Virus record (IMG/VR): IMGVR_UViG_3300022226_000016
Coordinates: 1-30,262 of that record
From: a virus
DNA: 30,262 nt
Direction: 5' to 3' (one strand)
The translations under genes were made by a program, and so were the position numbers. Below the pieces are notes generated by a model. It was given only the letters and a program-made list of their open reading frames with translations. It did no database searches and was not told where the DNA came from. Shown in pieces: positions 19,805-30,117 of this stretch (position 1 is the first letter of the stretch; each line of letters starts with the position of its first letter).

Positions 19805-22600
19805 ATGAGCCTTAAAGACGGAACAGGTCCAGAAGGAAATGCCGCAGCTAAGGCTTTGGGCGTGCCTACGGCTGATGAACGAAGGAAAGAAGCTGCTAAG
19901 AAGCAGGTTGATCAAATTGTCCTTGACAGTAAAGCGTTCAAGAACGAAGATGAGCGGCAGGCTGCTTTACGCTTTCAGGAGCAGTGCCACCTCATGCTCA
20001 AGTGGAAGCAGTTTACGAGTCAAAATCCTGGGCGACAGTCTGGGATTTATTACAACAATTTTCTCACAATCGATCATGATACACCCTTTGATTTCATCAA
20101 TAAACTTTTTCACAAAGGTGCTGATTCTGATATCCTGTTTAATCTAAATGCTTCTCAGTTGTCTCTCTTGGTTCCACAAGTGAGAATCTTCAAAATCTTC
20201 ATCGACCCGGTGACCAAGGAAGAGTTTCCCATTGAGTTGCCATTTGACGATTCGCTCAGTAGGAGAGAAGTAGCGAACATAACCAAGACTAGTAGCGGTA
20301 GGGGTCGTGGAGCAGGTTTGACCTCTTTTACTTGGAAGACTGTTGGAGATATGCCAGCTAATAGTTTCCAGTTTGAAGCAAATATGACCTTGCACTTGCA
20401 AAGTGTGGAGGACATTTTCGCTATTCGCGATATTAGAGAGGTTCAATTTGCAGCATCTAAAAAGACTGTTCCACTGAGTTTTGCCGATTTGTTGGTTCCG
20501 CAAGCACAGTTCAAAAAAGGTGCCAACGACGGTCCTCGCGTTTGGGATCCAACGTATTTTAAAATCAAGGCAGTAGTTGGTTGGAAGGTTCTTGCTCCTC
20601 GTGGTACAACCAGCTTCATTCCTACCAAGGCAAGAGAGGCTCTAGAGAGGACTCAGAATGTTTTCATTTTGGCAATGTTTCAACACGAAATGGACATCAG
20701 AGATGATGGTTCGGTAGATTTGAGCATAAACTTCATGACCATGCCAGAGATGGTGGCTAGCGATCCGCTGAAATCCAACATTTTGTTCCCTAGTGCTGAA
20801 ACTAAGTTGGAAATTGAAAGGCTGGTAGAAACCGCTAATCAGTTAGAATTTGAGCTTTTAACCAACCAGGACGTTGGCAATCTCAGGGATGAAGATAATG
20901 AACAATCCTTGGCTTCTGGTGTTACACAATCTCTCGCTCCAGGTGCTCCAGGCGCTTTAGATCCTAACACAGCAAACGCGAAGAAAGCAGCACTTGCAGA
21001 TGTTCAAACGAAACTTGCTCTCTTTGACAATTCAAAAAAGAGTCAGTCCTACCGCAGAATTTTGAGTTCCTTGTTCGTTCAGGACAAGCTCTTTTTCACC
21101 TTGGCAAACAAGGATTTTTTCAATAGACAAATTAACCTAAGAAATAGCAATGAAGCTGGAACCCAGGATATCGGTCTTGAGAATGCTGAAAGAACAGCAG
21201 AGAGAAACTCAGCTGAAGCTGGTGGTACTGGAACCGGAGGAGAGAATCCAACTCTCCCTGTGGCTATCGCAGCAAAAGAGGGCGACCCTAACAATGATTT
21301 AGCCAATTTCAAAGAAGGCTTAGACAAGCTTAGTGAGTTTGATGTAGATGAACCAAATCAAGACTCTTACAAAATTATCTATTTCTATTTTGGAGATTTG
21401 TTGGATGTTGTTTTGGACGGAATGTTCAAGAAGAGCTTGAGCAAGCCAGATACTTTCGAGAATAAAGACGTGAAGGTGATTCTTGGACCTCTTACTTTTT
21501 ATGACTATGGGAATTTGATAGACCACGGGGTAGTAGGAAAGGCTGCTGGACTCCGTCACGATCTTGCTGAAACTGACAGAATTTACACTGGGACGCTTTC
21601 TAGTGTGAATATAGCAGACATTCCAATTTCTATGAAAGTTTTCACTCGCTGGTTCAACAACAACATCGCCAACGAAGGAATAGAAACTTACACGTTTCAC
21701 GACTTCATTACAAAAGCTCTAAACGATTTGGTCATTGAAGCTGTTAAATCGCAGTGCTACGATTTTGCCCCTAGGCAGACTCAAGCAAAGCTCACCTACA
21801 AGACATTTAGTGTTCCAGAAAACCCAAAACGAACCGAACTGTTCAGAGAGACAACTAGAATTACAGCGGAAGATCTCAAAGATACTCCATTCATCACTGA
21901 GGAGCATCGTGCTCTAAGCGATACGAAAAAGATGGAAAATTACATTCTTTTGCACGCTTCGGTGGACCACCCGTGGGCATTGAGCGGAGACTACGAAGAA
22001 GACAGACAAAATGGTATTTTTCACATGTTTTTCGGAAATGAACGAGGCATTGTAAAGAACATCAAATTCAAGCGTGAAGATAAGCCCCTCGTCCGCGCGG
22101 CAAATATCGCAAACAATTATAATGAAAGCCAGGGTTCAACTAAGGTTTTGAGAGAAGCATACAACGCTAATGTTGCTATGGTTGGAAACAATCTTTTTGA
22201 AGTGGGAAGTTTGGTTAGAATAATTCCTTCTCTAGGTGGCAGCGGCGACTCTACGCGATTGCTCAAAATTGTGGACGATTTAGGTATTGGTGGCTATTTT
22301 ATGGTTCTTGGGAGGGAAGACAGGGTCGAAGCAGGGCTATATCAAACAGACCTAGATCTCAAGTGGATGAGTCCTGCGAATAAGGAGACTGCTGGCAAAA
22401 TTGCCCTTGGAGACAAGGCACTACCACCTAACGCTGTTGTGAGCAAAATACCTAAAACTGAAGAACAAGCGAAGACCCAAACAAAGGCAGAAGAAGTTAA
22501 GGCTGTTCAAAACGCTCAAAAAGATACCAGCGTAAATCAAGCATCAGCTAAACTTGGGCAAGCAGAGAGGAGAAACCGTGGTGGAGGACGTAGATTCTAA
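19805..22600 (+). CDS. Baseplate hub-like protein (gp27/gpD-type features), 931 aa
   Basis: A large soluble protein. Residues about 185-330 include FQFEANMTLHLQSVEDIF and VQFAASKKTVPLSFADLLVP, seen in structural proteins of large myophages. Residues about 720-860 include GIFHMFFGNERGIVKNIKFK, LREAYNANVAMVGNNLFEVG and SLVRIIPSLGG, a pattern typical of gp27/gpD-like hub rings, followed by YFMVLGRED and a Lys/Ala/Gln-rich tail ending RRNRGGGRRF. Middle regions rich in Asn, Glu and Ala are likely linkers. It follows the LysM wedge protein by three bases. The hub role is inferred from the C-terminal pattern and position. The stop overlaps the next ATG. Confidence 0.6.
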   Translation: MSLKDGTGPEGNAAAKALGVPTADERRKEAAKKQVDQIVLDSKAFKNEDERQAALRFQEQCHLMLKWKQFTSQNPGRQSGIYYNNFLTIDHDTPFDFINKLFHKGADSDILFNLNASQLSLLVPQVRIFKIFIDPVTKEEFPIELPFDDSLSRREVANITKTSSGRGRGAGLTSFTWKTVGDMPANSFQFEANMTLHLQSVEDIFAIRDIREVQFAASKKTVPLSFADLLVPQAQFKKGANDGPRVWDPTYFKIKAVVGWKVLAPRGTTSFIPTKAREALERTQNVFILAMFQHEMDIRDDGSVDLSINFMTMPEMVASDPLKSNILFPSAETKLEIERLVETANQLEFELLTNQDVGNLRDEDNEQSLASGVTQSLAPGAPGALDPNTANAKKAALADVQTKLALFDNSKKSQSYRRILSSLFVQDKLFFTLANKDFFNRQINLRNSNEAGTQDIGLENAERTAERNSAEAGGTGTGGENPTLPVAIAAKEGDPNNDLANFKEGLDKLSEFDVDEPNQDSYKIIYFYFGDLLDVVLDGMFKKSLSKPDTFENKDVKVILGPLTFYDYGNLIDHGVVGKAAGLRHDLAETDRIYTGTLSSVNIADIPISMKVFTRWFNNNIANEGIETYTFHDFITKALNDLVIEAVKSQCYDFAPRQTQAKLTYKTFSVPENPKRTELFRETTRITAEDLKDTPFITEEHRALSDTKKMENYILLHASVDHPWALSGDYEEDRQNGIFHMFFGNERGIVKNIKFKREDKPLVRAANIANNYNESQGSTKVLREAYNANVAMVGNNLFEVGSLVRIIPSLGGSGDSTRLLKIVDDLGIGGYFMVLGREDRVEAGLYQTDLDLKWMSPANKETAGKIALGDKALPPNAVVSKIPKTEEQAKTQTKAEEVKAVQNAQKDTSVNQASAKLGQAERRNRGGGRRF

Positions 22601-23844
22601 TGGCAAACAAATTGGATCTCTTCAGACCTGAACCACTGTTGGTCAACACTGAGCCAGAGGCAACAAACAGTCTCACCTCAAGAGCTACCTTTTATCAGAG
22701 GAAGCTTTATGAGCTAGTTGCGTTTAATTCTTCTCTTATTGGAGACACCAAGCCAATTGATTTTTGGTATGAGAAGACATTTTATGGCAGAATCAATCCA
22801 GATTCTAAGGCAGTCCACGTTTCTGAGGCTTTTCTGAAGCAGATTCCTGGGACTCCTGATTTGTTCTTGTTGAATTTTGTGACCGATGCATTCGAGGATT
22901 TGAGAGAGTTCTTCGGTTTCATGATTTCTAGGGATGCTATTGAAACTCAGAGTGTATACACCACGCTCAACCCTACAGCTGCATGGACAAGGTTGAATAC
23001 GTTTTACCACGATTACATCACCGTCATTTATGACAAATTCAAGGTTTTTGTTTCTGACCACAAGAAGGATAGAGACATTAAAGATTTCAAAACATTTGTT
23101 AGCATTTTTGTTGAGTTTATAGACTCCATCACTCCGTTGCTTTCTCTTACTCGGTCAAAAATTGTGGTATCGCGGTTTGCCGATCCCAAGGCGTCTGGAT
23201 TGATTGTAGAGGTCGGTAACGATCTTCACGGCACAGACCGTCCCAAGGTTGAGACATATCTGAATGATCCTAATTTTCCCGTTTTCAAAGAAACAGCCCA
23301 AAGGTTTGGGTTTGTGGTGGACCGTCACGCACCGTGGCGCTTGGTCGCTGATCTTGGCTCCCCTGCCATGAAGCCATATCTAGATGACTACGAGCTAAAC
23401 CTGGAGACGCTCTTTGAGAGGTATTACTACACTTCATTTGAGATTGATCTACAGGCACTCAAGGCATATATCATTCAATTTTACAATTCCTATGTCACAG
23501 GGAAGAGAGTCCTGGTTGAGCCGATTTTTTCTTTTGATGAAAGTGGCAGGGTAGTAATTGAGAATAGGGAAATCGTCCGAGAACCCAAAACAACATTCGA
23601 AATCGATCAAGAAACTTCAGATGAATTTTGGTTACGGATGTACGCATTTATCCGCGCAAGAGAAGAGAACAAGGAGTGGAATCAGGCTGAATTTGAGAAA
23701 GTGGTTCGGAATGCATTTTTCTTTCTTGAAGGGGTTGACATGGAGCACGCGATCGAGTACATTCATCGCAGGAGTCGATTGGCTTCGGGATCACCCCGCA
23801 AGCAGAGAGATTACCACTTCATCAACTTCCAGAGACTTAATTGA
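22600..23844 (+). CDS. Virion/baseplate structural protein, 414 aa
   Basis: TAATG overlaps the end of the hub-like gene and GGAGGA lies 11 bases upstream. The protein is rich in Phe, Tyr, Asp and Lys with mixed helix and strand and no membrane segment. Segments such as RFGFVVDRHAPWRLVADLGS and LETLFERYYYTSFEIDLQAL are like conserved positions in structural proteins of T4-related marine phages, but I cannot name the function. It is the last structural gene before the replication module; the next gene starts inside its stop codon. Confidence 0.6.
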   Translation: MANKLDLFRPEPLLVNTEPEATNSLTSRATFYQRKLYELVAFNSSLIGDTKPIDFWYEKTFYGRINPDSKAVHVSEAFLKQIPGTPDLFLLNFVTDAFEDLREFFGFMISRDAIETQSVYTTLNPTAAWTRLNTFYHDYITVIYDKFKVFVSDHKKDRDIKDFKTFVSIFVEFIDSITPLLSLTRSKIVVSRFADPKASGLIVEVGNDLHGTDRPKVETYLNDPNFPVFKETAQRFGFVVDRHAPWRLVADLGSPAMKPYLDDYELNLETLFERYYYTSFEIDLQALKAYIIQFYNSYVTGKRVLVEPIFSFDESGRVVIENREIVREPKTTFEIDQETSDEFWLRMYAFIRAREENKEWNQAEFEKVVRNAFFFLEGVDMEHAIEYIHRRSRLASGSPRKQRDYHFINFQRLN

Positions 23845-25025
23845 CGACATTCATAGCGCTAGACGACAAAGAAAAGTGTTTTGCCTATTACGCGCAGGGT
23901 AGGTTGGTATACGACACCGAACTTCCACCTACTCTCACGAGGACGTGGAAGTTTTTGCCATTTATGGATTTTGAGAACGGTACATATGCATTCCTTTACG
24001 TCGGTGGGGGAATGGATTCGTGCTGTCCTGAAGAGCTACGCCCGCGCTGGGATAAAGTAAACGACAAGATGCAGGCATTCCTTCGGTCTTTCGCTGAAGC
24101 TAAGGTCAGCCTGATTGACAACTGTTTGTATGACATGGTCCCAGAACAGTTTCTCTTGGAGTATTTCGACACACAGTGTAAGATTGTTGATTACATTTTT
24201 GACAACTACGAAAAGCCTCAAGATTATGAGCACAGGTTGGCTCTACACAAGATGTTGAGCCACATTGCTACCCAGCGCATCACCCTAGATAAGCGCGCTT
24301 TGAAAGATCAACTTGCAAACCCTCAGGCACGTCAGTTCGTAAAGAAGCTGGAAAATTGGGACTCTATCTCGTTTAACCAATTCGGAACCAAAACCGGAAG
24401 ACTGACAACAGAGAGGGATAGCTTTCCTATCCTGACCATGAACAAAGAATATAGGTCAGTTCTGAAGCCACAAAATCATTTCTTTGTGGAGTTTGATTAC
24501 AATGCAGCTGAGCCTCGTGTGTTTTTGGCTCTGGCGGGCTGGGAGCAGCCTGTAGGGGATATTCACCAGTGGAATGCCGACAAGGTATTCAAGGGTGAGA
24601 AAAGTAGGGCAGAGGCGAAGAAAGAATTTCTCGCGTGGTTCTATAATCCGTCTGATGAGCGAGAGTTTGGACAATTTTACAACAGGCAAGATGTCCTTGA
24701 CAAGTTCTGGGATGGGTGCTATATTGAGAACCCGTTTGGTCGGAAGATCGAAGCAGATCACCATCATGCTCTGAATTACATTATCCAGAGCACCACTTCA
24801 GACCTAGTCCAGAGACAGGCAGTGAAGATTTTCGATTTTCTGAAAGACAAGAAATCAACCGTGGCTTTTACCATGCACGATTCGGTTGTGGTAGATTTGC
24901 ACGTTGAGGACAAAGAATTGATTTCTGTAATCTCCAGAATGTTCGGTAACACTCAGTTTGGCAAATTCAAGGTGGGTGTGTCAGCTGGACAAGATTTTGG
25001 AAACCTAGAGGAACTAGATGTCTGA
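23841..25025 (+). CDS. Family A DNA polymerase, polymerase domain only, 394 aa
   Basis: The palm and fingers motifs are visible in order: GTKTGRLTT (182-190); motif A DYNAAEPRV (219-227, catalytic D219); motif B-like RAEAKKEFLAWFYNP (256-270, R256 and K260); NYIIQSTTSDLV (312-323); and motif C MHDSVVVD (345-352, catalytic D347, with Ser in place of the usual Glu of HDE). The first about 170 residues do not show 3'-5' exonuclease motifs, so proofreading would need a separate protein. It is far shorter than T7 gp5 (704 aa). The start is TTG overlapping the previous stop (TTGA); the protein reads sensibly from there, but the first ATG in frame is near 23963. T4 itself uses a family B enzyme. Confidence 0.85.
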   Translation: MTTFIALDDKEKCFAYYAQGRLVYDTELPPTLTRTWKFLPFMDFENGTYAFLYVGGGMDSCCPEELRPRWDKVNDKMQAFLRSFAEAKVSLIDNCLYDMVPEQFLLEYFDTQCKIVDYIFDNYEKPQDYEHRLALHKMLSHIATQRITLDKRALKDQLANPQARQFVKKLENWDSISFNQFGTKTGRLTTERDSFPILTMNKEYRSVLKPQNHFFVEFDYNAAEPRVFLALAGWEQPVGDIHQWNADKVFKGEKSRAEAKKEFLAWFYNPSDEREFGQFYNRQDVLDKFWDGCYIENPFGRKIEADHHHALNYIIQSTTSDLVQRQAVKIFDFLKDKKSTVAFTMHDSVVVDLHVEDKELISVISRMFGNTQFGKFKVGVSAGQDFGNLEELDV

Positions 25026-25356
25026 ACGCATAAAATACAACAAATTGGTTCGTGATAAGATTGGCGACCATCTGGCGCATAATGCAGAAGACGTGGTTGG
25101 GTTTGAAATCCGCGCTTGCAGAGACACAGCTGAATACAAGCAGCGCCTGTATGATAAACTAGAAGAAGAGGTTCAAGAATTCCTTAACGATCCTTGTGCA
25201 GAAGAAGCAGCTGATGTACTTGAGGTGCTCTATGCTGTTTTGAAGCTTCACAATATTCCGTCCTTTGAAGTAGACGATGCTCGTTTTCACAAGGCAGCAG
25301 AAAAGGGACGTTTTGAGGATGAGCTTGTCCTAGAGTGGGTGGAGAGAAATGAATAA
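25018..25356 (+). CDS. MazG-like nucleotide pyrophosphohydrolase, 112 aa
   Basis: The start YNKLVRDKI (residues 7-15) and the helical metal-binding pattern E50-E51-x2-E54 with E63-x2-D66 (KLEEEVQEFL then EEAADVLEVL) match the all-alpha phosphoribosyl-ATP pyrophosphohydrolase/MazG superfamily. Such enzymes hydrolyse (d)NTPs or related nucleotides to monophosphates and are common in phages. The substrate cannot be read. Its ATG overlaps the polymerase stop by eight bases, with GAGGAA before it, so it is coupled to replication. Confidence 0.85.
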   Translation: MSERIKYNKLVRDKIGDHLAHNAEDVVGFEIRACRDTAEYKQRLYDKLEEEVQEFLNDPCAEEAADVLEVLYAVLKLHNIPSFEVDDARFHKAAEKGRFEDELVLEWVERNE

Positions 25357-25528
25357 AGACTACGTTAGAGGAACACCAATTTCAGCCAAAGAAGCGCTTG
25401 ACGAGATGCGTGATCAATTGCGGCGAGATATGGGAGCCAGAGATGCTCCTGTTGAGGAAATGAAGGATTCTGACCGTGATTTCTTTGAGGCTTGGGATCG
25501 TTACGCTGCGAGGATTTTGAGACAGTGA
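25349..25528 (+). CDS. Small charged helical protein, 59 aa
   Basis: An ATG overlapping the MazG stop region by eight bases opens a 59-residue ORF. It begins MNKDYVRGTPISAKEALDEM and ends WDRYAARILRQ. It is rich in Asp, Glu, Arg and Ala and looks fully helical. The end overlaps the GTG of the next gene as GTGA. The tight overlaps on both sides support a real gene and there is no competing reading of this gap. Function unknown. Confidence 0.65.
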   Translation: MNKDYVRGTPISAKEALDEMRDQLRRDMGARDAPVEEMKDSDRDFFEAWDRYAARILRQ

Positions 25529-26364
25529 TCGTAATCGGATTGGGACATGCGGGATGCGCGATTGCTCAGAAATTTGAGCAATATCCGCAGTATTCTGTGC
25601 GCTATATCGACACTGAAAAGTGGGGCAAAAAATCCCAATCTTACGTTCTAGATGAGTATGCAAAACCCGAGGAATATGAGGATAACTGCCCGAACTTGCA
25701 CAAGTTTCTGGGCGATTGCAAGGGCGATGTACTATTTACTGTAGGTGGTTCGGGGATGATCTCCGGAGCATCTTTACGCATTTTGGAGCAGATTAAGGAC
25801 TGTCAGATTTCCGTATTGTATATTCAACCCAATCGAGATTTTCTATTTGGTGACAATGCTTTGCAGGAGAGAGTGACGTTCGGTGTGTTTCAACAATTCG
25901 CGCGCTCTGGTTTGTTTGAACGGTTGTATTTGGTGAGTAACGTGGATGTGGAAGAGAGCTTGGGTAACGTGACAGTCACTGACTATTTTGAAAAGATTAA
26001 TGAAGCGATTGTTTCAACCCTTCATATGGTTCATGTATGGCAGCACACTCCACCAGTTATGGGAAACCTGACCAAGCCAGCCAAGACAGAAAGAATCTCT
26101 ACGCTTGGGGTAATGGACGTAGAATCGGGAGATGAAAAGATGTTTTTCTCCTTGAAAAATCCCACAAGCAAAAACATTCTATATGCAATTAATGACAATT
26201 CTCTAAAGAAGGAGAATCAGTTGCACGGAAATATTCAAAAGCAAATCAAAAGCAAGATGTCTGACGACACCAAGGTTTCGTTTGGCATTTATGCAACCGA
26301 TTACGAGGGTAGTCAAGCGTATGTTCTTGCACACACCAAAATTGTGCAGGAAGAAGGGGCTTGA
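25525..26364 (+). CDS. Tubulin/FtsZ-like protein with degenerate catalytic loop, 279 aa
   Basis: The GTG at 25525 overlaps the previous TGA as GTGA and places the glycine-rich loop at the N-terminus; a TTG at 25492 would add 11 residues. MIVIGLGHAGCAIAQKF resembles the tubulin/FtsZ T1 loop. DVLFTVGGSGMISGASLRIL (68-87) resembles the strand, G-box and helix of FtsZ/tubulin. LYLVSNVDVEE followed by YFEKINEAIV (134-163) resembles the nucleotide-contacting Asn region. The C-terminal FGIYATDYEGSQAYVLAHT resembles the end strands of FtsZ. The T7 loop region reads GNLTKPAK, lacking the acidic N-x-D-x2-D/E residues needed for hydrolysis. No standard database name is claimed; a Rossmann-like nucleotide-binding protein is the alternative. 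Confidence 0.6.
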   Translation: MIVIGLGHAGCAIAQKFEQYPQYSVRYIDTEKWGKKSQSYVLDEYAKPEEYEDNCPNLHKFLGDCKGDVLFTVGGSGMISGASLRILEQIKDCQISVLYIQPNRDFLFGDNALQERVTFGVFQQFARSGLFERLYLVSNVDVEESLGNVTVTDYFEKINEAIVSTLHMVHVWQHTPPVMGNLTKPAKTERISTLGVMDVESGDEKMFFSLKNPTSKNILYAINDNSLKKENQLHGNIQKQIKSKMSDDTKVSFGIYATDYEGSQAYVLAHTKIVQEEGA

Positions 26365-26389
26365 CAGCTGAAGTGATCTGTGTTAGAAT
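26361..26389 (+). promoter_or_regulatory. Sigma70-type promoter
   Basis: TTGACA (26361-26366) and TAGAAT (26384-26389) are separated by exactly 17 bases. The -35 is perfect and the -10 has one mismatch to TATAAT. Transcription would begin near 26396, giving a leader of about 34 bases before ATG 26430. The -35 overlaps the stop codon of the tubulin-like gene. It probably gives early or middle expression by host polymerase. Confidence 0.8.
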
Positions 26390-26742: not shown

Positions 26743-26997
26743 ATGGCGCTGCTTAAGGTCTACGAGGGTCATTTCGAGAAACAAGACGGTGACGTGCGCA
26801 GCATGCGATTTGTCAAGTTGAACGAAGTGCCCTCGGATCTTCTCCCTGAAGCAAAGGGAGGAGCCACACCAAGGAAATATTCTGAGGGTGTGGAACTGGT
26901 TTGGGATCTCGATAAACAGGGATTTCGAGCATTCAACTGGAGCACCGTTGTGGGGCTGGTGGTTGAGAAACAAGAAGAAATAACCAAACTGCGGTGA
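26743..26997 (+). CDS. Small conserved beta-rich protein, 84 aa
   Basis: ATG 26743 lies one base after the previous stop; an upstream GTG at 26734 has no better RBS. The sequence includes YEGHFEKQDGDVRSMRFVKL and ELVWDLDKQGFRAFNWSTVV, a small SH3-like beta pattern that resembles short proteins common in marine T4-related phages, of unknown function. It is co-transcribed with the ssDNA-binding protein that follows. Confidence 0.65.
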   Translation: MALLKVYEGHFEKQDGDVRSMRFVKLNEVPSDLLPEAKGGATPRKYSEGVELVWDLDKQGFRAFNWSTVVGLVVEKQEEITKLR

Positions 26998-27018
26998 TGT
27001 GAACAATTCCACATCATC
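26993..27018 (+). promoter_or_regulatory. Leader hairpin before the ssDNA-binding protein gene
   Basis: GGTGATGTG (26993-27001) and CACATCATC (27010-27018) pair over nine positions, one a G-U, with an 8-base AACAATTC loop. An A-rich single-stranded region with the AAGGAG ribosome binding site follows. There is no T-run. It may be a translational operator, comparable in position to the T4 gene 32 leader pseudoknot. Confidence 0.45.
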
Positions 27019-27037: not shown

Positions 27038-27796
27038 ATGGCTATTGATATGAAGAAAATGCGTGCCAAGTTGGACGCAGCAAAAAACAAGGGTGGAAAG
27101 GTATGGAAGCCCAAGATCGATTCGGAGACCAAGGTCCGTGTCCTTCCTACCCCGGATGGCGATCCTTTCAAGGAGAAGCACTTTCACTACAATCTTGGCA
27201 AGCAGAGCGTGCTCTGTCCCAAGCGGAACTTCGATGAGGAGTGTCCGGTGTGTGAATTCGCTTCTCAGCTTTGGAATGAGGGTGATAAGGAAAGCCAGGA
27301 AATGGCTAAGAAGCTCTTCGCTCGTCAGCGATTCTTCTCTCCCATCATCCTGCGTGACGATAAGGACCCTGTTGTCAAGGTCTGGGGTTACAGCCAGTCC
27401 GTTTATGAGGACCTTTTGAGTACGTGCCTCAATCCTGAGTACGGAGATATTTCCGACCCAGAGAATGGTACTGATTTTGTTATCAAGTACGAGAAGGGAG
27501 ATGCTCAGTTCCCAAGCACCAAGCTTGTTTACTCACGTAATGCAAGTTCGCTGTGCGGTGATTTGGGCGAAGAGAAGTGTGCAGAGCTTTTGGATAATCT
27601 GCCAGATTTCGATTCGCTTTATGAGCGTAAGACTACTGCCGAGGTCCAGAGCATCTTGGATGCCTACATGGACGCTGACGGTGGAGACGGTGAGGGTGGC
27701 GATACTGAGAAGTACGCTGGCAGCACCACCGAAGAGACCAATGTTGATGGGGCACTCGATGACCTCAAGCCTAAGAAGGCTAAGAAGAAAGCGTAG
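27038..27796 (+). CDS. ssDNA-binding protein, gp32-like, 252 aa
   Basis: Residues 48-72 contain H50-x9-C60-x8-C69-x2-C72, close to the zinc motif of T4 gp32 (H-x12-C-x9-C-x2-C). The N-terminus is basic and helical (MKKMRAKLDAAKNKGGK), like the cooperative-binding end of gp32. The core VRVLPTPDGDPFKEKHFHY matches the start of gp32-type OB domains. The C-terminal tail is acidic (DADGGDGEGGD), the usual site for partner binding, but ends in a Lys-rich stretch (KPKKAKKKA). Some T4-like phage SSBs have similar basic ends. It coats ssDNA in replication and recombination with the neighbouring UvsX-like protein. The RBS AAGGAG is well placed. Confidence 0.88.
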   Translation: MAIDMKKMRAKLDAAKNKGGKVWKPKIDSETKVRVLPTPDGDPFKEKHFHYNLGKQSVLCPKRNFDEECPVCEFASQLWNEGDKESQEMAKKLFARQRFFSPIILRDDKDPVVKVWGYSQSVYEDLLSTCLNPEYGDISDPENGTDFVIKYEKGDAQFPSTKLVYSRNASSLCGDLGEEKCAELLDNLPDFDSLYERKTTAEVQSILDAYMDADGGDGEGGDTEKYAGSTTEETNVDGALDDLKPKKAKKKA

Positions 27797-27868: not shown

Positions 27869-29068
27869 ATGGCAGGAAGAACACCTAAGCCAAACGCTAT
27901 AGATATAGCTGCGCGGCGAAAGCTCTTGAACAAAATTGCTGGCGGAAACGTCACATACGACCTGAATGAAGAAAACCCAACTGATGTGAATTACTGGATT
28001 CGCACAGGTTCTACGTGGCTTGATGCGATTATCTGTCGTGGACAAATGGCAGGCATTCCAGGTGGAAAGATCACTGAGATTGCTGGGCTCCAGTCGGTTG
28101 GTAAATCATACGAGGCTTTGCAGATTGCGGTAAATGCTCAGAACGATTTGGACATGACCGTGGTCTATGGCGATCCTGAATCGGGAATGAATTCTGATTT
28201 CATGCGCCAAGCTGGATGTGATTTGAACAAACTGATTTACGTACAGCCGCCAGATTTGGAGACGTGGTACGAAATCATGGAAGAAATGCTTAAGAATTGT
28301 CAGCCAGGAGAGAGGATGCTTTTCATTCTTGATTCGTTGGCGTCGATTCCATGCAGAGCAGACAACGAGGGAGATTACAACCCCAACTCTTCAGTCGGCG
28401 TAAAAGCTAGAGTTCAGTCGAAATCGCTGATGAAGCTCAACATGCCTCTGGCTCACGCTGATGCAACCTACATCATTCTGAACCAGTTGAAGACAAACAT
28501 CACTGGAATGTCGAAGGTTCCGAATCCGAAGTACGCCACAGACAGTCAGCGCTACATTGCTCCAGGTGGCAAGGCAGCTGAGTATTTTGCTAGTCTAAGG
28601 ATTTGGTTGACTGGTTCACAATCTAAGAAGTTGAAGGTTCTCGACGAGAATGGATATCGAATTGGTTCTTACGTCAAGGCTCGTCTTGAGAAGTCTCGAT
28701 TTGGGTCTCAGGATCGCACATGTGAATTCAAAATCCTTTGGGGTGATGAAGTTGGAGTAATGGACGAGGAGAGTATTCTTGAAGCAATCAAGCCTGCCGA
28801 TGAGATTACACTTGGACAGTGGTGCAAATTGGAACATGGAGGGAAGACGTGGAAATGGCAGGGCGCTGAGCCTGGATTTGTTAAGCTCATGCGTGAGGAT
28901 GAAGAATTCAACAAGGCAGTTATGCACATTTTGCATCGGGACATTGTTCTGGCTTTTGAAGAGCGGACTGGCGATGCAAAGAATTTCTACGATCCGACAC
29001 CTGAAGAAATGAGAGAAGCGGACAAACTAGCTAAAGCAGCTGAAGAGGCTGCGGCAGAAAACGACTGA
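27869..29068 (+). CDS. uvsX: RecA/UvsX-like recombinase, 399 aa
   Basis: Walker A is GLQSVGKS (73-80) and Walker B is MLFILDSLAS (catalytic region near D155). Residues GDPESGMNSDFMRQAG and the later TYIILNQLKTNITG followed by APGGKAAEYFASLRIWL match the RecA/UvsX core, including the L2-like DNA-binding loop region. The C-terminus is acidic and Ala-rich. It drives strand exchange in recombination-dependent replication with the gp32-like protein just upstream. Two purine-rich RBS sequences (AAAGGAGG and AAGGAG) precede ATG 27869. No promoter was recognised between the upstream terminator and this gene. Confidence 0.92.
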   Translation: MAGRTPKPNAIDIAARRKLLNKIAGGNVTYDLNEENPTDVNYWIRTGSTWLDAIICRGQMAGIPGGKITEIAGLQSVGKSYEALQIAVNAQNDLDMTVVYGDPESGMNSDFMRQAGCDLNKLIYVQPPDLETWYEIMEEMLKNCQPGERMLFILDSLASIPCRADNEGDYNPNSSVGVKARVQSKSLMKLNMPLAHADATYIILNQLKTNITGMSKVPNPKYATDSQRYIAPGGKAAEYFASLRIWLTGSQSKKLKVLDENGYRIGSYVKARLEKSRFGSQDRTCEFKILWGDEVGVMDEESILEAIKPADEITLGQWCKLEHGGKTWKWQGAEPGFVKLMREDEEFNKAVMHILHRDIVLAFEERTGDAKNFYDPTPEEMREADKLAKAAEEAAAEND

Positions 29069-29323: not shown

Positions 29324-29476
29324 AAACTGTTGGACATTTGTGAAGTAAAGTGTTGTATTTGTGATACACCCTATAGCAAAGAGATTCACGAGTGGCTGGA
29401 TAATCCTGGGGTTTGTTGTTATTACACATTTAGATCTGGTGGTTCAGATGGTGTGAAGATGAAGGTAGATTGTTGA
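29288..29476 (+). CDS. 62-aa Cys-rich ORF with a 5'-nuclease-like N-terminus (possible gene remnant)
   Basis: It starts MTKRVMIVDALNKLLDIC, nearly the same as the start of the 5' nuclease at 30114 (VNKKRVMIVDALNQFL). After about 17 residues it diverges into a Cys-rich segment (CEVKCCICDTPYSKEI, later GVCCYYTF) and stops at 29476. The spacing from AAGGAG to the start codon (five bases) is the same in both copies. It may be a truncated or replaced duplicate left by insertion of the endonuclease, or a short chimeric gene. Four of its six Cys lie within five residues, but no standard zinc motif can be assigned. Confidence 0.55.
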   Translation: MTKRVMIVDALNKLLDICEVKCCICDTPYSKEIHEWLDNPGVCCYYTFRSGGSDGVKMKVDC

Positions 29477-29477
29477 C

Positions 29478-29498
29478 CCTCCTAGTTACATTAGGAGG
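29478..29498 (+). promoter_or_regulatory. Hairpin sequestering the homing endonuclease RBS
   Basis: CCTCCTA (29478-29484) pairs perfectly with TAGGAGG (29492-29498), with two more possible inner pairs. The right arm contains the AGGAGG ribosome binding site of the endonuclease start at 29506. In long transcripts this would block initiation. Confidence 0.7.
29482..29488 (+). promoter_or_regulatory. Late-promoter-like motif CTAGTTA at the homing endonuclease
   Basis: CTAGTTA followed by C lies across the left arm and loop of the RBS hairpin. A late transcript beginning shortly downstream would lack the left arm and leave AGGAGG or most of it free. The motif matches the set found before structural genes. 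Confidence 0.5.
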
Positions 29499-29505
29499 AG
29501 ATGAT

Positions 29506-30117
29506 ATGAGTGGTGGAGTTTATCTTATAGAAAACAAAAAGAATGGAAAAGTTTATGTTGGGAGTACCAAAAATCTAAAACGAAGGTGGTGGTTTCATCA
29601 ATATCTACTGAAAAAAGGAAACCACACCAATAAATATTTGCAGCAAGATTGGGACGAGTGTGAAGATTTTCAATTTTTAGTTTTGATGGAGAGTGATGAT
29701 AGAGAGAAAAGGTTGGAATTTGAAGAGAGGTTGATAGAAGAAAAGAAGTGTTATATTCGAGAACTTGGATACAATATTTTTAAAATACCTACAGCCAATA
29801 GTGATGGAAAAATTCCTTGGAATAAAGGGGTTCCGATGAGAAGAGAAGTGAAAGAAAAAGTAAGAAATACCCTTCTCGGACGTCCTTCTCCCATGAAAGG
29901 GCGGAAACACTCTGAAGACACTAAGCAGAAAATGGCAGGCAAGAAGAAAGGAGAAAATAATCCTCGTGCAGTTTTTACAAACGAGCAAGTCGCGAAAATA
30001 AGGGAAGAATATGCACAAGGCGGGATTTCACAAAGAAATCTTGCCAAAAAACATGGAGTCTCTCGTGGCGCTATAAGAGGGGTTCTGTTGAATCGCACAT
30101 ATAAGGAGATAATGTGA
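29506..30117 (+). CDS. GIY-YIG homing endonuclease with NUMOD3-like motifs and HTH, 203 aa
   Basis: ATG 29506 is chosen because AGGAGG (29493-29498) is seven bases upstream; a TTG at 29470 precedes this RBS. GIY-YIG core: GVYLIENKKNGKVYVGSTKN, then RRWW with the catalytic Arg, and the catalytic Glu in KRLEFEERLIEEKK. The middle (IPWNKGVPMRREVKEKVRN, LGRPSPMKGRKHSEDTKQKM) has NUMOD3-like repeats, and the C-terminus (KIREEYAQGGISQRNLAKKH, GVSRGAIRGV) is a helix-turn-helix that would bind the target. The gene is visibly A-rich compared with its neighbours, consistent with transfer. It is free-standing, not in an intron, and its last codons contain the RBS of the next gene. Confidence 0.88.
   Translation: MSGGVYLIENKKNGKVYVGSTKNLKRRWWFHQYLLKKGNHTNKYLQQDWDECEDFQFLVLMESDDREKRLEFEERLIEEKKCYIRELGYNIFKIPTANSDGKIPWNKGVPMRREVKEKVRNTLLGRPSPMKGRKHSEDTKQKMAGKKKGENNPRAVFTNEQVAKIREEYAQGGISQRNLAKKHGVSRGAIRGVLLNRTYKEIM

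Follow-up and report, generated by a model that had tools for sequence, protein, structure and literature searches.

Tubulin-fold proteins of phages are known from few groups, and tubulin homologues of nucleus-forming jumbo phages, marine ones included, have already been published (PMC9123017). PhuZ of the phiKZ-like nucleus-forming phages is dispensable there: it is non-essential and is missing from 24% of chimalliviruses (PMC11724907). It has been reported that the PhuZ mutant D190A has no GTPase activity, yet polymerises only with GTP and gives stable filaments (PMC4244570). FtsZl1 and FtsZl2, published by Makarova and Koonin in 2010, are divergent superfamily members of cells that have lost motifs, and FtsZl1 lacks a tubulin-like C-terminal domain as well as a recognisable T6-H7 (PMC2875224). 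The other described systems compared here are FtsZ, the archaeal CetZ and TubZ, which acts in plasmid and phage partition.

In this study, we analysed an ORF in a virus contig from IMG/VR (IMGVR_UViG_3300022226_000016). The window, which is the whole stretch of DNA that was analysed, is 30,262 nucleotides long, and the source record is a 30 kb contig with no sequence beyond it. The ORF product is almost certainly a tubulin-fold protein. By the features tested, it is a member of neither the FtsZ nor the PhuZ family. It is filed only as a divergent family with a tubulin fold, not as a canonical tubulin, because the acidic T7 motif is missing from all of its aligned members. In the open-access literature, to which the search was limited, no report of this tubulin family in T4-like phages was found.

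Predicted tubulin fold of the window protein

An AlphaFold model of the window protein was built on an alignment of 48 environmental relatives. The model (pLDDT 94.4, pTM 0.92) showed a complete two-domain tubulin fold, and the best 50 Foldseek matches in the PDB were FtsZ and TubZ, with E values down to 5e-13 and probability 1.00. VIA re-alignment of the model gave Z scores of 21.8-25.3, spanning residues 1-279. The best structural match was CetZ (Z 25.3, rmsd 2.8 over 257 residues), followed by TubZ (Z 23.4 over 275 residues), FtsZ (Z 22.9) and tubulin (Z 22.2), where scores less than 1 Z apart count as tied. CetZ belongs to archaeal cells and has about 13% identity to the window protein. 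The best viral structural match was A0A6J5RW92, a BFVD entry named 'FtsZ' from an uncultured Caudovirales phage (TM 0.77 on the query), although this protein has 452 aa and 14% identity. A second family member (L048), modelled on its own alignment, gave a pLDDT of 93.5 and a CetZ Z of 24.2. Since the matches span residues 1-279 and the second member agrees, both domains are present. A sequence-only reading of this DNA had proposed a tubulin/FtsZ fold, to be checked by structure prediction and Foldseek; the listed top matches were all FtsZ or TubZ and covered both domains, the outcome that it had named as support.

Sequence profiles were also compared. The family profile scored 44.6 against FtsZ over 158 columns in hhalign (E 2e-5 over the GTPase domain) and 45.3 against PhuZ over 97 columns of the N-terminal part; these scores do not separate the two. 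The maximum in 100 column shuffles was 21, and the polymerase and SSB profiles scored below 20; for reference, FtsZ and PhuZ score 66.6 against each other. The profile comparison is support for a predicted tubulin homology that is independent of the model. No match above cut-off was found in Pfam or PHROGs, neither of which has a family covering the tubulin-fold protein. Against PDB sequences, a single-sequence search gave nothing useful and a profile search gave chance matches only.

Some family members had weak scores with TrkA_N (best E 0.0004) and with further families that bind dinucleotides, as would be expected if the protein were not a tubulin and its glycine loop merely mimicked tubulin on an ordinary Rossmann nucleotide-binding protein. 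This explanation is already contradicted and retains almost no credibility. Among the listed rows, two high-confidence models matched only tubulin-fold chains, over both domains, and the profiles matched FtsZ and PhuZ.

Guanine pocket and T7 region

Relatives of the window protein are encoded on at least 550 IMG/VR stretches. In all, 193 non-identical members align without stops; they have 260-299 aa and are 28-73% identical to the window copy. The positions of T1, T4, T6 Asn139 and H7 were assigned by hhalign alignment with FtsZ. The features of the window ORF are as follows.

25525..26364, + strand: predicted tubulin-fold protein, 279 aa; GTG start, stop codon at 26362-26364
25537..25560, + strand: T1 loop GLGHAGCA, residues 5-12, from the 193-member alignment
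25744..25770, + strand: T4 loop GGSGMISGA, residues 74-82, aligned to the FtsZ G-box GGGTGTGA
25891..25911, + strand: QQFARSG motif, residues 123-129, at the end of helix H5, from alignment and model
25939..25941, + strand: T6 Asn139, kept in 93% of 193 members, equivalent to the guanine-contacting Asn of FtsZ
25984..26043, + strand: central helix H7, residues 154-173, from model and alignment
26044..26094, + strand: T7 region, residues 174-190, from the alignment of 193 and two models
26095..26361, + strand: reduced C-terminal domain, with four main strands and one main helix in the model

The ORF and all peptides quoted in the sequence-only reading are present, at the fold positions assigned there. 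In the model, GLGHAGCAIAQKF forms T1 and H1 (residues 5-17), VLFTVGGSGMISGAS forms the strand, T4 and the beginning of H4 (residues 69-83), LYLVSNVDVEE forms strand S6, T6 Asn139 and H6, and FGIYATDYEGSQAYVLAHT forms the final two strands (residues 253-271). NLTKPAK (181-187) sits in the loop after central helix H7, at the T7 position of FtsZ.

The family is like FtsZ in T1, the position of T4, the T6 Asn and the aromatic-Asn spacing of H7. Among the 193 members, the T1 glycines are well kept (G5 95%, G7 98%, G10 88%), and the T1 Asn of FtsZ and tubulin (position 12), which is Ala in the window copy, is kept in 49%. In the T4 loop, G75 is found in 93% and S/T/A80 in 96%, and the central TG is gone. 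The exact signature GGGTG[ST]G is absent; at the aligned position the window has GGSGMISGA and the family consensus is GSGxISGA. In H7, residue 155 is aromatic in 89% of members and residue 159 is Asn/Asp in 94%, with the spacing of the guanine contacts of FtsZ and tubulin. We take the guanine-contact roles of the T6 Asn and of the H7 aromatic and Asn/Asp residues from general knowledge of these families.

The sequence-only reading had also described a degenerate T7 loop in the window copy. The loss extends through the family, as the acidic motif N-x-D-x2-D was found in none of the 193 members, and no column of their T7 region is acidic in more than 68%. In the comparison sets, N-x-D-x2-D is present in 8/8 FtsZ and [LI]DxxD in 8/8 PhuZ. 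Both models, those of the window protein and of L048, have coil at the place of H8 and a short strand or hairpin at that of H9, with no tail helix packed behind the last strand; H9 and the C-terminal tail are missing from the C-terminal domain. The window model stops about 8 residues past the last strand and has neither an FtsZ-type partner-binding tail nor a PhuZ-type helix and acidic tail. Unlike FtsZ, the family therefore has no N-x-D-x2-D, H8, H9 or C-terminal tail, and it lies in a phage replication locus. PhuZ is also phage-encoded, has a tubulin fold and is of similar size (about 315 vs 279 aa), but keeps its T7 acids and a longer C-terminus, whereas the window family is without T7 acids, H8, H9 and tail. 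FtsZl1 and FtsZl2 differ in being cellular and longer, with extra regions; the window family keeps T6 and H7 and loses only the T7 acids, H8 and H9. The GTP pocket looks kept and the element that would act in catalysis in trans looks lost, as judged from alignment and models. Binding of GTP without hydrolysis would fit this conservation pattern, and both functions are inferred.

Conservation in the family peaks in QxYARSG, where H5 ends, with Q123 in 100%, R127 in 100% and S128 in 99% of the 193 members. R190 (91%), H167 (93%) and N170 (88%) are further conserved. None of these are known catalytic residues, and their conservation suggests a putative specific contact surface.

The conserved arginines bear on a further explanation, in which the protein forms a dynamic PhuZ/TubZ-like filament that moves or centres phage DNA, with Arg127 or Arg190, for example, in place of the T7 acids. 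The fold is the same as that of dynamic tubulins, TubZ among them, and R127 and R190 are present at the frequencies given above. However, we know of no tubulin that uses such arginine-based catalysis. No adaptor gene of the TubZRC kind was seen among its conserved neighbours, and the family differs from TubZ in its lost T7 acids. We consider a dynamic filament improbable.

Gene neighbourhood and distribution

The window comes from a T4-like myovirus, with matches to the gp23 family head protein, tail sheath, tube, and baseplate hub and wedge. The T4-related setting inferred by the sequence-only reading was thus confirmed through the gp23, sheath, tube and hub matches. The neighbouring features are as follows.

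23841..25025, + strand: family A DNA polymerase-like protein, 394 aa, conserved upstream neighbour
25018..25356, + strand: MazG-like ORF, weak PRA-PH match (E 0.03)
25349..25528, + strand: 59-aa ORF from the ORF list, its stop overlapping the tubulin start
26361..26389, + strand: sigma-70-like promoter TTGACA-17-TAGAAT at the tubulin stop, from the sequence
27038..27796, + strand: gp32-like single-strand DNA-binding protein (SSB), conserved downstream neighbour
27869..29068, + strand: UvsX-like recombinase, from match and neighbourhood
29470-30117: GIY-YIG homing endonuclease gene, 3' of UvsX

The order in 86 loci is wedge, large protein, p414, polymerase, (MazG), tubulin, SSB and UvsX. The sequence-only reading had proposed a look for relatives beside MazG and a family A polymerase; the polymerase was found adjoining, and the MazG-like ORF lies between polymerase and tubulin in only a subset. 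No other gene beside the tubulin in relatives is conserved except the SSB. In the window, the GTG at 25525 overlaps the TGA (25526-25528) of the upstream 59-aa ORF, and two small ORFs separate the tubulin gene from the SSB. At 125 of 184 distinct junctions, the tubulin start falls no more than 16 nt before or 11 nt past the end of the polymerase stop codon; the commonest junction is a 4-nt overlap, of the kind that goes with translational coupling. Several relatives also have a sigma-70-like promoter at the tubulin stop. This predicted promoter suggests that the tubulin gene may end the polymerase transcript and that the SSB genes have their own start.

Two other features of the locus were observed. 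In nearly all relatives, the stretch from the gp25-like wedge protein to the polymerase holds two large conserved proteins without a PHROGs match (931 and 414 aa; window 19805-23844). Just upstream of the SSB start, at 26994-27017, lies a hairpin whose 8-bp stem closes an 8-nt loop (consensus GANATTNG). It occurs in most relatives, with all 8 pairs formed in 113 of 188 distinct regions compared with 3 of 188 shuffled ones. There were 85 different 5' arms among 148, and the stem therefore shows strong covariation. No Rfam match was found in five loci. The hairpin is likely a translational operator of the SSB, on sequence evidence.

Four different family members used as queries retrieved no relatives of the tubulin from named phages. 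Leptolyngbya phage Lbo-JY46 gave a weak match only (E 0.006 over 71 positions). By tblastn, none of the bacterial and archaeal genomes encode a relative, and there is therefore no host or prophage link. To test whether linkage of the tubulin to its neighbours merely reflected how the loci had been chosen, contigs were instead retrieved through the neighbouring polymerase or SSB. The tubulin was carried by 78/78 contigs with enough sequence in the polymerase search and by 73/73 in the SSB search. These counts cover the best 80 contigs per search, and the queries were alignments of tubulin-carrying loci.

The nearest named phage found by gene order was Microcystis phage Mel-JY01 (L266, PP395634.1 48686-61600), a sister lineage at this replication locus, which has a homologous polymerase (E 3e-16), SSB (E 4e-60) and UvsX. 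No tubulin match was found anywhere in its 190 kb, and three unrelated ORFs occupy the place of the tubulin. A 428-aa Mel-JY01 protein between polymerase and SSB was checked as a diverged tubulin and rejected. The tubulin was likewise found in 0 of 128 environmental contigs related to the Mel-JY01 SSB, including 0 of the 61 that reach over 3 kb upstream. Tubulin presence needs one change (gain or loss), with support 100, on a tree of 82 SSB rows; intermediates may be hidden on the long branch that separates the two SSB clades. Therefore, the tubulin is a clade-defining core gene of uncultivated T4-like phages that was gained or lost once in the sample. Here the family differs from PhuZ, as it is present in every sampled member of its clade.

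One large contig of the tubulin clade (G004, L256-L265, 187,750 bases) has a gene for a DNA polymerase III alpha as well, and the family A protein is therefore not its only polymerase. It further encodes a chaperonin, Clp protease, ribonucleotide reductase, IMP dehydrogenase, adenylosuccinate synthetase, glycosyltransferases, T4-like structural genes and 11 tRNAs. In 12 large contigs, nothing was found with the T4 sliding-clamp family PF02916, a family close to T4 whose absence says little, and chimallin (201phi2-1 gp105) gave no match in a search without a positive control.

The distribution bears on whether the protein acts on the host. An FtsZ-like pocket without a catalytic loop would suit a capping subunit, and a phage decoy that co-assembles with FtsZ or caps it would block division. 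However, anti-division phage genes are usually accessory and early. An antagonist of host FtsZ is less likely because the gene is an invariant core gene tied to replication genes, found in all sampled members with a fixed place between polymerase and SSB. We regard such an antagonist as very doubtful, and found no specific support for the filament-capping and host-FtsZ ideas raised in the sequence-only reading.

Possible role in phage replication

The explanation that we prefer as a whole, with confidence evenly balanced, is a compact core tubulin-fold family that is GTP-bound, hydrolyses slowly or not at all, and acts as a static replication scaffold. The protein would bind GTP, and GTP would be hydrolysed slowly or not at all because no T7 acid would complete the catalytic site of the neighbouring subunit. 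GTP-dependent self-association would then give static protofilaments or short oligomers, as in catalytically dead PhuZ. These assemblies would form a scaffold to keep the replication complex or the replicating genomes together. By analogy, PhuZ is the closest functional model, as the whole window family resembles the D190A state at T7, and it is this resemblance that favours a GTP-bound static scaffold. GTP binding, hydrolysis and polymerisation are inferred without experiment, and the scaffold role itself is held tentatively, at slightly less than even confidence.

Several points stand against a scaffold. T7 and H8 are also assembly (longitudinal) contacts in FtsZ and tubulin, and a protein that has lost T7-H8 may be unable to polymerise. 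The signature of T4 has degenerated, and only half of the family retains the T1 Asn. Location beside replication genes does not prove a replication role, and the sister lineage has a homologous polymerase and SSB without a tubulin.

Because of the assembly contacts at T7 and H8, the main rival is a GTP-binding accessory factor that does not polymerise, a monomer or dimer that would bind the polymerase or SSB as a nucleotide-sensing switch. The loss of T7, H8, H9 and the C-terminal tail together would agree with it, as would the overlap of the tubulin start with the polymerase stop. The residues that vary least (QxYARSG) do not belong to the catalytic set of tubulins and could bind a partner. 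However, there is no fusion or interaction evidence, and the sister lineage does without the tubulin despite its homologous polymerase and SSB. This rival is possible but unlikely.

What is new is a tubulin fold and pocket that lack the catalytic loop and belong to the core genes of a replication module. Every sampled member of a group that spans hundreds of environmental contigs has this compact tubulin as a fixed core gene. The tubulin is physically tied to polymerase and SSB and is without the catalytic loop that drives tubulin dynamics. The fold may by now be a structural or regulatory component that the replication complex requires and that does not hydrolyse GTP, with the invariant QxYARSG patch as a new working surface; we consider this possible, though rather doubtful. 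If true, a tubulin relative would serve DNA replication itself, not movement, division or segregation. The family widens the known uses of the tubulin fold, is a natural test case for the parts of the fold that assembly needs, and provides a marker gene for this uncultured T4-like group.
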